A DNA stretch of 64,000 nucleotides from Armatimonadota bacterium. GTDB lineage: Bacteria > Armatimonadota > UBA5829 > DSUL01. Location: assembly GCA_025998755.1 (NCBI GenBank), contig AP024674.1:1788162-1852161 (forward strand). Direction: 5' to 3'. This document shows, piece after piece, positions 46,067 through 57,994 of this stretch. The notes beneath the pieces were generated by a model. That model was not told the DNA's origin. It ran no database searches and worked only from the letters and a program-made list of their open reading frames with translations. Position numbers and translations under genes: made by a program. Position 1 is the stretch's first letter. Every line of letters begins with the position of its first letter.

Positions 46067-46900
46067 TCACGACTTCTTCCTGGACCTCAGCAGACCGAGT
46101 CCGCCCAAGCCGAGCAGAGCACCCATCTGGAAGAAGACCGGCTCGGGAATCGGGGGAGCGGCCGTAAGGGTCAACACCCCTTCCCACCGGTTCTGGATGG
46201 CCGGCGGCGGGCTGTTGTAGTTGAACGCATCAAGCGATCCGAACCAGATGCGGTACTGTTTACCAAGCACCGCCCCAGGATCGGAAGGATCATAGCCATT
46301 TGCGTTCAGGTCTTCGTAGAGATCAGCCTCAAACCAGAACGCAGCCAGATCTACTCCGCCTTTCCAGGTGGGGCGCAGGTAGAGATTTGGATCCTCCGTC
46401 CACCACTGGACGATGTACCCGTTCATGCCCCAGTTGTAGGGGGTGATGTCCACGATTTCCCAGTTCCAGCCGCTGTGGGAGCTTCCTGCAAGGATGTCCG
46501 AGCTGTTGGGATTTTGGACGAGAATCTCGCCCCACGTAGGAGCAGCAGCCTTGTTCAGCAGCCAGATATTGAAGGATGCTATGCCTTCACCCGGCTGATC
46601 CAAATTCTTCAGCCAGTCAACATAGGCATCCCCTTCGGCGGGCTGATTGGCTCCTCCACCAGACGGATCCTGGACACCTTGCTTGTAATACCAGGTGCGG
46701 CTCCAGTTGTTATTCGGGTCAATGCGAAGCCGGGGATTGCCCTGGGTCTCCTTGTGTGACTTGATCCAAGCGGTGCTGTCGCCGTAGAGATCCATCAGGT
46801 CGTTCGGATCGAACTCGAAGCGGACCCTCGCCGCATCTGCAGCTGCCGTCAAGGACAGCATTACGACAGATGTCAGCAGTAGAAGCACTAACCGGTTCAT
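46067..46900 (-). CDS. PEP-CTERM sorting-domain secreted protein
   Basis: The 277-residue product has a signal peptide (MNRLVLLLLTSVVML, cleavage near ADA). The extracellular domain is rich in Trp, Asn and Asp (WNWEIVDITPYNWG), of unknown fold. The C-terminal PEP-CTERM tail is PIPEP, a Gly/Leu-rich helix, then RSRKKS. It is a predicted exosortase substrate. The ATG at 46900 is preceded by AAAGGAGAGA; a longer upstream frame has no support. It has its own promoter and terminator. Confidence 0.9.
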   Translation of the reverse strand: MNRLVLLLLTSVVMLSLTAAADAARVRFEFDPNDLMDLYGDSTAWIKSHKETQGNPRLRIDPNNNWSRTWYYKQGVQDPSGGGANQPAEGDAYVDWLKNLDQPGEGIASFNIWLLNKAAAPTWGEILVQNPNSSDILAGSSHSGWNWEIVDITPYNWGMNGYIVQWWTEDPNLYLRPTWKGGVDLAAFWFEADLYEDLNANGYDPSDPGAVLGKQYRIWFGSLDAFNYNSPPPAIQNRWEGVLTLTAAPPIPEPVFFQMGALLGLGGLGLLRSRKKS

Positions 46901-47097
46901 TCTTGTTTCGTCTCTCCTTTCTGCGTTTCCGGTCTGCTCCAACACGGACCCAAAGCCAATGAAAAGCCTGGCCCGCGCCTTCAGACCTAAGTGCCATTGG
47001 CATGGATTTCTGCGGTGGAATACGCCGAAGAGGGAAAGCGAAGTGGAAACTCGGGTTGTGTAAGTGCTAGCCCGTGTCTCCGGCGTAACCCAAGTTA
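46901..47097 (-). other. 5' leader of minus-strand PEP-CTERM gene
   Basis: About 190 nt separate the predicted transcription start from the ATG. I see no ORF with good signals and no known riboswitch in it. It may only hold the ribosome-binding site. Confidence 0.4.
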
Positions 47098-47126
47098 AGT
47101 ATAGCACAAGTCTCCCGCCGACGCAA
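47098..47126 (-). promoter_or_regulatory. sigma70-type promoter of minus-strand PEP-CTERM gene
   Basis: TTGCGT (complement of 47121-47126) and TATACT (complement of 47098-47103) with a 17-bp spacer. The -35 box is the same as in the second small-RNA unit at 50777. Confidence 0.6.
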
Positions 47127-47225
47127 GAGACATTTTGATGCATTGATTCAAATAGTTGTTTGTTGCTGTCCGTGTCCGTTTGCGAGAGCGTCTAAGGACC
47201 AGCACTTGGGGAGAGCTACTGCGGA

Positions 47226-50568: not shown

Positions 50569-50579
50569 GTGAAAAAAGT
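50569..50579 (+). promoter_or_regulatory. conserved upstream element of small RNA 1
   Basis: GTGAAAAAAGT ends 21 bp before the -35 box. The same 11 bases occur at the same distance before the second unit (50745-50755). It could be an activator site or a displaced A-tract UP-like element. Confidence 0.6.
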
Positions 50580-50600
50580 GCAAAAAGTTTCGGCACCCTC

Positions 50601-50629
50601 TTGCGCAACCGGCCGGCGTCCGATATTAT
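50601..50629 (+). promoter_or_regulatory. promoter of small RNA 1
   Basis: TTGCGC and TATTAT with a 17-bp spacer. Initiation is expected near 50635-50637, directly at the conserved hairpin. Confidence 0.65.
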
Positions 50630-50634
50630 GACTG

Positions 50635-50706
50635 GTGAAAGCTTCCCACCCTCCTTTCACCTCCCCGGTGGACCCTGAAAGTTCACCGGGGGGTTTCTTT
50701 TTCTGG
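50635..50706 (+). ncRNA. tandem small RNA 1 with anti-Shine-Dalgarno-like hairpin
   Basis: The predicted transcript of about 70 nt starts with a hairpin: GTGAAAG (50635-50641), loop CTTCCCACCCTC, CTTTCAC (50654-50660). The segment CCTCCTTTC equals nine bases of the conserved 3' tail of bacterial 16S rRNA, so it could pair with ribosome-binding sites. A terminator (stem CCCCGGTG/CACCGGGG, 50663-50691, then a T-rich tail) closes it. The hairpin is identical in unit 2 while promoter and terminator sequences differ. No ORF fits. I do not recognise a described family. Confidence 0.65.
50663..50706 (+). terminator. terminator of small RNA 1
   Basis: CCCCGGTG (50663-50670) pairs with CACCGGGG (50684-50691) and is extended inward by GA/TT pairs. 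It is followed by GGTTTCTTTTTC. Confidence 0.8.
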
Positions 50707-50744
50707 CTTCTTGCGTCCGCCCGGCTGGCGGGACGAAAGCTGAT

Positions 50745-50755
50745 GTGAAAAAAGT
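50745..50755 (+). promoter_or_regulatory. conserved upstream element of small RNA 2
   Basis: GTGAAAAAAGT, 176 bp after the first copy and again exactly 21 bp before a -35 box. Confidence 0.6.
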
Positions 50756-50776
50756 TAAATATTCCGGTTGAGAGTG

Positions 50777-50805
50777 TTGCGTGCAGATTGGCTGAGAAGT
50801 ATAAT
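50777..50805 (+). promoter_or_regulatory. promoter of small RNA 2
   Basis: TTGCGT and a perfect TATAAT with a 17-bp spacer. Initiation is expected near 50810-50812. Confidence 0.75.
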
Positions 50806-50809
50806 AGTT

Positions 50810-50877
50810 GTGAAAGCTTCCCACCCTCCTTTCAGAGAAGCCCGGCGGACCACGCGGTTCGCCGGGCTTTTTCTTTG
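50810..50877 (+). ncRNA. tandem small RNA 2 with anti-Shine-Dalgarno-like hairpin
   Basis: The same hairpin as unit 1: TGAAAG (50811-50816), identical 12-base C-rich loop, CTTTCA (50829-50834). A different but stronger terminator follows (AAGCCCGGCG with CGCCGGGCTT, then TTTTCTTT). The transcript would be about 65 nt. Its terminator ends 120 bp before the ABC transporter ATG, so an alternative reading is a leader attenuator of that operon. The independent promoter and the upstream duplicate argue for a free small RNA. Confidence 0.68.
50838..50877 (+). terminator. terminator of small RNA 2
   Basis: A ten-pair stem (50838-50847 with 50860-50869) is followed by TTTTCTTT. Confidence 0.85.
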
Positions 50878-55633: not shown

Positions 55634-57994
55634 TTACTGCTTGGGACGGAACCGCGCCTGAGGCGGGCGAGGCTCTTCCGGCAAGGAAGTGACATTGTGA
55701 TCCGGGCGGGGACGCTGCTGCTGTTGCTGAGCGCGTTCGTCCCTGCGATCCCTCCCGCCCCGGTTCTGCTGGCGGTCCTGCCGGTCCCGGCCTCCTCGGT
55801 CGCGGTCCCTGCCGCCGCCTCCGCCGCGGCCGCCCCGATCGTGCCCGCCGCCACGGCGCTCATCCTGCGACGGCGGGGCGCTGCCCGGTTTCACAGTCAG
55901 CGGCTCGGCCAGCCCCTGCGCCACCAGCCCGCGGCGTGAGAGATTGATGCGGCCCATATCGTCAATCTCTTCGACCTTGACCATCACCTCATCGCCCACG
56001 TTCAGGACGTCCTCGGTGCGGCCGATGCGCTGGTCCGACATCTCCTGAATGCGCAGCAGGCCGTCCTTGCCGGGCAACAACTCCACAAAGGCGCCGAACG
56101 TGGCCGTGCGCACCACCGTGCCCAGGAACGTCTCCCCCACACGCACCTCGCGCGTCAGGTCTTGAACGATCTTCGCCGCGCGCTCTCCGCCTTCGGCATC
56201 CGTGCAGGTGATGAATACCCTGCCGTCCTGCTCTATGGACAGTTTGGCGCCGGTGTCCGCCTCGATCTTCTTGATGATCTTGCCACCGGGGCCGATGACA
56301 TCGCCGATCTTGTCCGGATGGATCTCGATCATGATGACGCGCGGCGCGTAGCGGCTGAGCTCCGGGCGTGGCCTGTCAATGCACGCATCCATCACGTCCA
56401 GCACTGTCATTCTGGCCGCAGTTGCTTTCTCGATGGTCTCCCGCACCTGCTGGATGGTCAATCCGCGGATCTTGGTGTCCAGCTGAATGGCGGTCACGCC
56501 GGTGCGTGTGCCGGCGACTTTGAAGTCCATGTCGCCGGAGAAGTCTTCCATCCCCTGGATGTCCGTCAGGATGGTGTAGCGCTCGCCGTCCGAGATCATT
56601 CCCATCGCGATGCCGCCCACAGCGGCTTTGATGGGCACACCGGCGTCCATCAGCGCAAGCGACGATGCGCAGGTGCTGGCCATGGAGGTGGACCCGTTGG
56701 ATTCCAGCACCTCGCTGGTCAACAGGATGGCGTAAGGGAATTCTGATTCGTCCGGCACCACGGGCCGGAGGGCTTTCTCAGCAAGCGCGCCGTGGCCGAT
56801 CTCGCGCCGACCCGGTCCCCGCAGGGGGCGCACCTCGCCCACCGAGAACGGCGGGAAGTTATAGTAGTGCATGTAGCGCTTGACCGTGTCTTCCTCGATG
56901 CCATCCACGATCTGCGCTTCGTCCACTGCTCCCAGCGTCAGCGTAGTCAGGACTTGCGTCTGGCCTCGCGTGAACAGGCCTGAACCGTGCACCCGCGGCA
57001 GGATGCCCACCTCGGCGCTCAGAGGGCGCACGGTGTCCGCGTCCCGCCCGTCCGGCCGCTTGCCCTCGTCCAGGATCAGACGCCGCACCTCGGCCTTGAT
57101 GACCTTGTCTGCCGCCTGCGCGATGTCAGCCTCGCGCTCGGGATAGGCCTCTGCCAGCTTCTGGGTGATATCCTGAACCAGGTCATCCAGCGCCGATTCC
57201 CGTGCAGCCTTGTCCGGGTCACAGATGGCGGCGGTGATATCGGACAGGAACTCCGAACGGATCCGCTCCACAATCTCCGGATCCGGCAGCTTGATGATGG
57301 GCTCCGCTTTCGCCTTGCCCACCTTCTCCGCCAGCGCCACCTGGGCGTCGCAGAGCACCTTGATATGTTCGTGCGCAAGAGCAATGGCGGAGACGATGTC
57401 TTCGTTCGAGACCTGCGAGGCCTCACATTCGATCATGTTCACCAGGTCCGGCGTGCCGGCGACGATGAGGTCGATATCGGCCTTCCGGGTCTCCTCGAAT
57501 GTGGGGTTGACGATCATCTGACCGTCCACGCGCGCCACCCGGACCGCCGCCACCGGCCCATTGAACGGAATGTCCGACACAGCCAGCGCAAACGCGGCCG
57601 CATTGACGGCCATCACGTCCGGCACTGCTTCCAGGTCCACGGACAGGGGCATCACGATGATCTGGACTTCGTTCCGCATTCCGTCGGGGAACAGGGGGCG
57701 CAGGGGGCGGTCAATGAGGCGGGAGGTGAGGATGGCTCGTTCGGAGGGCCGCCCGCCTCGTTTGACGAACCCTCCTGGAATCTTTCCGACGCAGTATTTG
57801 CGTTCTTCGTAGTCGCAGATAAGCGGGAAAAAGTCTATTCCTTCCCGCGCGGCCTTCGTCATGGTGGCGGTGGCCAGCATGACTGTGTCGGCCGTGTACA
57901 GCAGAACAGCCCCGTTCGCCTGATTGGCGACGCGGCCTGTTTCTACCCGGAGCTGCTTGCCGCCGAGCTCCAGCGCGATCTCATGTTTTTCCAT
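55634..57994 (-). CDS. pnp: polyribonucleotide nucleotidyltransferase (PNPase)
   Basis: The 786-residue product has the two RNase PH domains, the first opening with EIALELGGKQLRVETGRVA and the catalytic second with VHGSGLFTRGQTQVLT, GTRTGVTAIQLD and the intervening helical domain. A KH domain (GPGGKIIKKIEADTGAKLSIEQ region, about 560-615) and an S1 domain (about 625-695) follow. The C-terminal 80 residues are an unusually long Arg/Gly/Asp-rich tail ending in QQQQQRP, likely an RNA-binding disordered extension. PNPase degrades RNA from the 3' end. It lies 20 bp downstream of rpsO, the conserved order. Confidence 0.98.
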   Translation of the reverse strand: MEKHEIALELGGKQLRVETGRVANQANGAVLLYTADTVMLATATMTKAAREGIDFFPLICDYEERKYCVGKIPGGFVKRGGRPSERAILTSRLIDRPLRPLFPDGMRNEVQIIVMPLSVDLEAVPDVMAVNAAAFALAVSDIPFNGPVAAVRVARVDGQMIVNPTFEETRKADIDLIVAGTPDLVNMIECEASQVSNEDIVSAIALAHEHIKVLCDAQVALAEKVGKAKAEPIIKLPDPEIVERIRSEFLSDITAAICDPDKAARESALDDLVQDITQKLAEAYPEREADIAQAADKVIKAEVRRLILDEGKRPDGRDADTVRPLSAEVGILPRVHGSGLFTRGQTQVLTTLTLGAVDEAQIVDGIEEDTVKRYMHYYNFPPFSVGEVRPLRGPGRREIGHGALAEKALRPVVPDESEFPYAILLTSEVLESNGSTSMASTCASSLALMDAGVPIKAAVGGIAMGMISDGERYTILTDIQGMEDFSGDMDFKVAGTRTGVTAIQLDTKIRGLTIQQVRETIEKATAARMTVLDVMDACIDRPRPELSRYAPRVIMIEIHPDKIGDVIGPGGKIIKKIEADTGAKLSIEQDGRVFITCTDAEGGERAAKIVQDLTREVRVGETFLGTVVRTATFGAFVELLPGKDGLLRIQEMSDQRIGRTEDVLNVGDEVMVKVEEIDDMGRINLSRRGLVAQGLAEPLTVKPGSAPPSQDERRGGGHDRGGRGGGGGRDRDRGGRDRQDRQQNRGGRDRRDERAQQQQQRPRPDHNVTSLPEEPRPPQARFRPKQ

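Follow-up and report, generated by a model that had tools for sequence, protein, structure and literature searches.

A multi-copy family of predicted small RNAs with a conserved C-rich motif and mostly ECF-type promoters in one class of Armatimonadota

One class of Armatimonadota carries a previously undescribed family of small RNA genes, which falls outside every described RNA family it was compared with. That these genes are real and form a family is nearly certain; their products are probably trans-acting small RNAs of about 65 nt, encoded in multiple copies, driven mostly by an ECF sigma factor and pairing with other RNAs through a C-rich 5' seed. Each gene runs from its promoter through a leader of about 7 nt and the linear C-rich sequence CUUCCCACCCUC to a short pyrimidine tail, and ends in a Rho-independent terminator; the predicted RNA is about 65 nt long. 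The best reading of these RNAs is that they make up the noncoding part of a sigma-E-like (ECF) stress response, in the manner of FoxI/FoxJ, RybB/MicA and Yfr1.

The starting point was a pair of genes in the window, the stretch of 64,000 nucleotides that was analysed. The original prediction placed here two tandem small RNA genes, each with its own promoter and terminator, and rereading of the sequence agrees with it in location (both units lie within 50569-50877), in the shared 24-mer TGAAAGCTTCCCACCCTCCTTTCA, which starts at 50636 in unit 1 and at 50811 in unit 2, and in the terminator folds. The parts of the pair are as follows.

50570..50589, plus strand: unit 1, A-rich upstream (UP-like) element, TGAAAAAAGTGCAAAAAGTT, read from the sequence, function putative
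50601..50629, plus strand: unit 1, promoter TTGCGC - 17 bp - TATTAT, housekeeping-type, -35 element (50601-50606) only 3/6, -10 box at 50624-50629; kept in the same-genus genome
50636..50702, plus strand: predicted small RNA 1, about 67 nt, start placed from the -10 position and end from the T-run
50642..50653, plus strand: unit 1, class-conserved 12-mer CTTCCCACCCTC, predicted seed (alignments A1 and A3)
50661..50703, plus strand: unit 1, intrinsic terminator, 13-bp stem then TTTCTTTTTC (terminator scan and fold)
50744..50762, plus strand: unit 2, A-rich upstream element, TGTGAAAAAAGTTAAATAT, read from the sequence
50777..50805, plus strand: unit 2, promoter TTGCGT - 17 bp - TATAAT, -35 element at 50777-50782, -10 box at 50800-50805; kept in the same-genus genome
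50811..50876, plus strand: predicted small RNA 2, about 66 nt (sequence and fold)
50817..50828, plus strand: unit 2, class-conserved 12-mer CTTCCCACCCTC, predicted seed (alignments)
50835..50876, plus strand: unit 2, intrinsic terminator, 17-bp stem then T-rich tail (fold)

The 24-mer has exactly two matches in the 3.29-Mb genome, with none for a reversed-pattern control. Each transcript is predicted to fold into a weak 5' hairpin and a strong terminator; the whole units have folding z values of -3.1 and -5.6 relative to dinucleotide shuffles, and the 5' hairpin by itself has -2.7 to -4.6 kcal/mol with z near -1. The predicted promoters fared less evenly: the 17-bp spacers and the -10 boxes are present and the same-genus genome retains the two promoters, but just three of the six positions of each -35 box agree with TTGACA, and a sigma-70 consensus scan reports neither promoter. 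A-tracts comparable to those of the pair also lie 5' of other copies of the family. Elsewhere in the window, an apparent PNPase (polyribonucleotide nucleotidyltransferase) gene was noted by eye at 55634-57994 on the minus strand, about 5 kb from the pair, and the exported protein encoded at 46067-47143, also on the minus strand, has a C-terminus, IPEPVFFQMGALLGLGGLGLLRSRKKS, that by eye resembles a PEP-CTERM sorting signal.

The two predicted units are only part of the set in this genome. Its single contig of 3.29 Mb carries eight copies, namely the window pair, a four-copy array (2721232-2721927, minus strand) and two single copies (2369088 and 1708239), and two other genomes of the same family carry six (G001) and seven (G002). 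A covariance-model search of related genomes had been proposed as a check; such a search was run on 291 genomes of the phylum and followed by a pattern search. Diverged homologues, many of them in tandem, turned up in three further families of the same class, and outside this class there were no units. Units are present in 18 of the 28 class genomes and in four of its five families (f1, which is the window's own, f3, f4 and f5). They are absent from f2 (five genomes), where the matches to the model were rejected as coding-like sequence lacking a promoter or terminator, from four genomes of the f3 genera g8 and g16, and from one f3 genome that is 67% complete. The 12-mer CTTCCCACCCTC occurs at 52 sites in the 28 class genomes, 43 of them units and 9 not, as judged by position or inspection, and the class genomes without units have no such site except, by chance, a single one in G013. 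When 84,980 species were scanned with the f1 form of the pattern, which distant homologues in other phyla could escape, convincing matches came only from relatives in the window's family; those in Blastopirellula, Prevotella, Streptococcus, Lachnospiraceae and one viral contig lacked a promoter or terminator and were taken as chance. Relatives were also checked for hairpins that are single-copy or that lack a promoter and terminator, and the small RNA reading survives. The original view that no described family matches is upheld as well: no unit reached the gathering level in Rfam (the window pair and other units were scanned). The library of papers searched contained no small RNA of Armatimonadota.

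Two of the loci are syntenic between genera: the neighbours of the array are TilS and a large exported protein, and that of the single copy is a ferredoxin. The third array unit of G001 corresponds to the upstream part of unit 3 of G000 joined to the downstream part of unit 4 (L022:6601-6622 versus L020:9234-9462), which is what recombination across the identical seed region would leave after removing one copy, as would a collapse in the assembly.

Strong purifying selection on the units had been predicted and is borne out, although it falls on the linear 12-mer rather than on the hairpin to which it had been ascribed. The flanks of paralogous copies are 51-70% identical, which is near the alignment background, and their seeds are identical; orthologous flanks, compared between G000 and G001, are 68-98% identical. 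In the alignments, the f1 form is GAAAG-CTTCCCACCCTC-CTTTC, and in f3-f5 CTTCCCACCCTC-TTTTCTC/G is preceded by (A)GCAAAC or (T)GTAAAC. Covariation was sought among the stem pairs in f1 and none was found, the f1 variants GATAG/CTTTC and GAAAG/CATTC each break a stem pair, and the 5' arm is gone from one G001 copy. For f3-f5, folding predicts a fully unpaired 5' region, seed included, with the terminator as the sole folded part; the fold of L234, computed for the opposite strand, does not enter into this result. The hairpin was rejected as the selected structure on these grounds, since its stem never covaries, is broken in several f1 copies and is missing in three of the four families, and the selected element is therefore taken to be the linear 12-mer together with the pyrimidine tail. 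A short coding gene was likewise rejected, because the conserved stretch lacks a start codon in the majority of copies. The proposed match to the 3' tail of 16S rRNA holds in f1, where the exact match is CCTCCTTTCT and the genome's own 16S rRNA ends in GGATCACCTCCTTTCTAAG, but it does not extend further: the match CCUCCUUUC is confined to the window's family, with the f1-specific CCTCCTTTC replaced by CCCTCTTTTC in the others.

The best clue to function is the ECF-type promoter found on most members, a feature that is invisible from one window. A strict filter passes 36 distinct sites, or 35 after one chance match in f2 is dropped. In 28 units the promoter is GGAAC-N17-CGT(A/C), ending 14-16 nt before the 12-mer (exactly 15 nt in 20 of them), and a strong terminator follows the 12-mer at 30-45 nt; seven further real units, the window pair included, have sigma-70-like promoters 8-13 nt before it. 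The window pair itself, unlike most copies, is without an ECF-type promoter. The two promoter classes differ in the distance to the start site, and judged from promoter position the predicted start of transcription falls 5-9 nt 5' of the seed under either class, which suggests that the change of promoter class kept the 5' end of the RNA. The GGAAC-N17-CGT(A/C) promoter is probably the ancestral state, and ECF control of most copies appears likely.

This promoter type, shared by the 28 units, is also that of a putatively autoregulated ECF sigma gene. In two f3 genomes the motif directly precedes an ECF sigma gene; the best relative of that gene in each of the 28 class genomes has 43-99% identity, and GGAAC-N17/18-CGTA lies upstream of the orthologous gene in nearly all readable class genomes. 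The copy in this genome has the motif GGAACTCGAACGGGCTACTCCGGCGTA about 20 nt before the start. The protein contains Sigma70 regions 2 and 4, and its gene is followed by a zf-HC2 anti-sigma gene (L171, L196). The start region of the ECF gene (L176, L178, L180, L182) was also seen to contain, in many cases, a AGGUGGAGG-like sequence, whose complementarity to the seed exceeds the average in f3 and not in f1. To judge from its arrangement, this ECF sigma/zinc-finger anti-sigma operon is autoregulated and conserved across the class, including f2, which has no small RNA. Each genome has several ECF paralogues, and other paralogues could read the GGAAC promoters. The motif recurs before MurJ, polysaccharide-export and FtsE-like ABC genes in two f3 genomes (G005 and G007), but an envelope regulon of the ECF factor is only suggestive, because the raw count of the bare pattern GGAAC-N17-CGTAT (28 matches versus 21 in the control) is little above control. 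Among start regions, that of the ECF mRNA ranks within the top 2-7% for complementarity to the small RNA in six of the seven tested f3 genomes and in the one tested f5 genome, and is unremarkable in f1, f4 and the remaining f3 genome; feedback pairing with the ECF mRNA, mainly in f3, is a weak lead.

Genomic context supports action in trans and argues against leaders. Different copies have unrelated neighbours, and downstream of the four-copy array nothing is encoded on the array's own strand, a convergent gene coming next. Targets were sought in a 400-kb sample per genome, covering about 12-15% of each genome, with starts chosen by a simple script (358 start regions from G000 and 266 from G007). 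A C-rich motif able to pair with ribosome-binding sites had been proposed, and the C-rich motif stands, but its core is less selective for such sites than most of its own permutations: 57 of 60 and 59 of 60 permutations of the 12-mer were more selective for start sites in the G000 and G007 samples. The suggested target prediction at start regions thus gave no enrichment above permuted seeds in the sampled regions. Genes for secreted proteins were not preferred among the roughly 620 sampled start regions (about 12-15% of each genome), and no conserved full complement, which would be a perfect antisense partner, was found among those occurrences of the 12-mer complement in the class genomes that lie outside the units. 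Taken together, these results argue against a general anti-Shine-Dalgarno action and for either a limited set of specific targets or protein binding. Base-pairing regulation by the 5' seed is probable. One exact complement of the 12-mer was noted on contig 419 of G003 at 392-403 (L300), apparently intergenic, with a start codon about 75 nt downstream; it is a possible target or a chance occurrence.

The proposed model of the response starts from the RpoE-like ECF factor, which is probably autoregulated and probably reads the GGAAC-N17-CGT(A/C) promoters of the small RNAs. Stress would free this factor from its zinc-finger anti-sigma partner, and several small RNA copies would then be transcribed together. 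Probably with the help of Hfq, which the genome encodes, the RNAs would pair through the 5' seed with G-rich (GGGUGGG-like) stretches of particular mRNAs, and pairing would mostly lower the translation or stability of those targets. Some copies in f1, among them the window pair, seem to have moved to housekeeping-type promoters, which would probably supply a basal level of the small RNA.

This model has close parallels in known systems. RybB, MicA and MicL of the enterobacteria are sigma-E-dependent small RNAs with a GGAAC-type ECF promoter, a 5' seed and a terminator. The Armatimonadota units resemble them in ECF promoter, size, 5' seed, terminator and Hfq, and differ in being multi-copy. The best Rfam score of all was for RybB (RF00110), with unit 2 at 24.1 bits against a cut-off of 40, and RybB gave no match in an f3 unit or the other units scanned. 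FoxI and FoxJ of Fusobacterium likewise form a noncoding arm of a sigma-E ECF factor outside the Proteobacteria, comprise more than one small RNA with a C-stretch seed, and have a promoter in common with rpoE, as here; they differ in phylum and sequence, in the length of FoxJ (about 156 nt), in not being a multi-copy tandem family and in having known targets, FomA and others (PMC11005410). C-rich seeds have been reported for FoxI/FoxJ (PMC11005410), Yfr1 (PMC2190773) and LhrC (PMC4132741). Cyanobacterial Yfr1 is 54-69 nt long, combines a terminator with an ultraconserved C-rich 11-mer that is unpaired, and regulates envelope genes (PMC2190773, PMC6974561). The units here are like it in size, conserved unpaired C-rich motif and terminator, whereas the Yfr1 motif ACUCCUCACAC lies between two stem-loops, including a 5' stem-loop, and the f3-f5 units have one terminator hairpin; ACUCCUCACAC is absent from the units, and the Rfam scans gave no Yfr1 match. 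We know of no ECF control of Yfr1.

Other multi-copy RNAs are more distant. LhrC1-5 of Listeria are induced by cell-envelope stress and bind mRNAs near the translation start through UCCC motifs (PMC4132741); the multi-copy state, the C-rich motif and the putative link to envelope stress are alike, but LhrC RNAs are 111-114 nt long with several CU motifs under LisRK two-component control, and the present ones are about 65 nt with one C-rich stretch. NsiR1 of Nostoc, about 60 nt, comes in tandem copies that each have their own HetR-dependent DIF1 promoter (PMC9045159). It matches in size and in tandem own-promoter copies, and differs in being cyanobacterial and in its DIF1 promoters; unit 1 scores 21.5 bits for NsiR1 (RF02399) against a cut-off of 39. 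The CcsR/CuckooRNA and alpha-r14 RNAs share a C-rich pairing motif, repeated homologous units and, for CcsR, control by stress sigma factors; CcsR1-4 are processed from a single ccaF1 co-transcript, and SmelA075 (alpha-r14) has CCUCCUCCC loops in several hairpins (PMC3927594, PMC8307010). That CCUCCUCCC motif and its hairpins are absent here, where the core is CUUCCCACCCUC and is predicted to be unpaired in f3-f5, and there was no Rfam match.

Explanations that dispense with specific mRNA targets have also to be weighed. A general anti-Shine-Dalgarno decoy, in which a mimic of the 16S tail sequesters many ribosome-binding sites or competes with ribosomes, draws on the CCTCCTTTC(T) that f1 copies have in common with the 16S tail of the genome, and on the stronger pairing of the full f1 5' region at start regions (-14.3 kcal/mol) than internally (-12.2 kcal/mol). 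It appears improbable: CCTCC is lost in f3-f5 although the 12-mer is unchanged, the CTTTC part lies within the stem in most f1 copies, and the permutation test argues against such global action. Titration of an RNA-binding protein by the unpaired 12-mer, comparable to that of CsrA/RsmA by CsrB/RsmZ, is a rather unlikely reading that would account for a near-invariant unpaired linear motif, a high copy number, a stress promoter and the failure to detect a complementary target. Known titrators carry several protein sites per RNA, but there is one site per 65-nt RNA here, with no GGA repeats. C-rich seeds, furthermore, are typical of pairing small RNAs (PMC11005410, PMC4132741). If titration were true, the ECF stress response of Armatimonadota would act on a post-transcriptional regulator by way of a multi-copy decoy RNA, and the copies with housekeeping promoters would set its resting level.

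It is very unlikely that the units are cis-acting leaders or attenuators of their neighbours. The window pair does lie about 120 nt upstream of a MacB/LolD-type ABC transporter gene, both here and in the same-genus relative, but each unit is closed by its own strong terminator, and the copies adjoin unrelated genes, the array meeting a convergent one. Scarcely credible is a non-functional interspersed repeat, REP-like or a transposon remnant: the units are short, multi-copy and tandem, as such elements are, yet paralogues have only about 22-27 nt in common, their promoters and terminators differ in sequence while remaining of the same type, and the spacing from promoter to seed is fixed over several families.

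On the preferred reading, that of trans-acting RNAs under ECF control, an autoregulated ECF sigma/anti-sigma pair together with a multi-copy noncoding arm makes up a candidate regulon for Armatimonadota. The window pair would represent a small RNA gene that was re-wired from a stress promoter to a housekeeping-type promoter with its seed and its promoter-to-seed geometry unchanged. The family would also extend the C-rich or 5'-seed small RNAs of sigma-E-like responses, found in Proteobacteria and Fusobacteriota, to another distant phylum.
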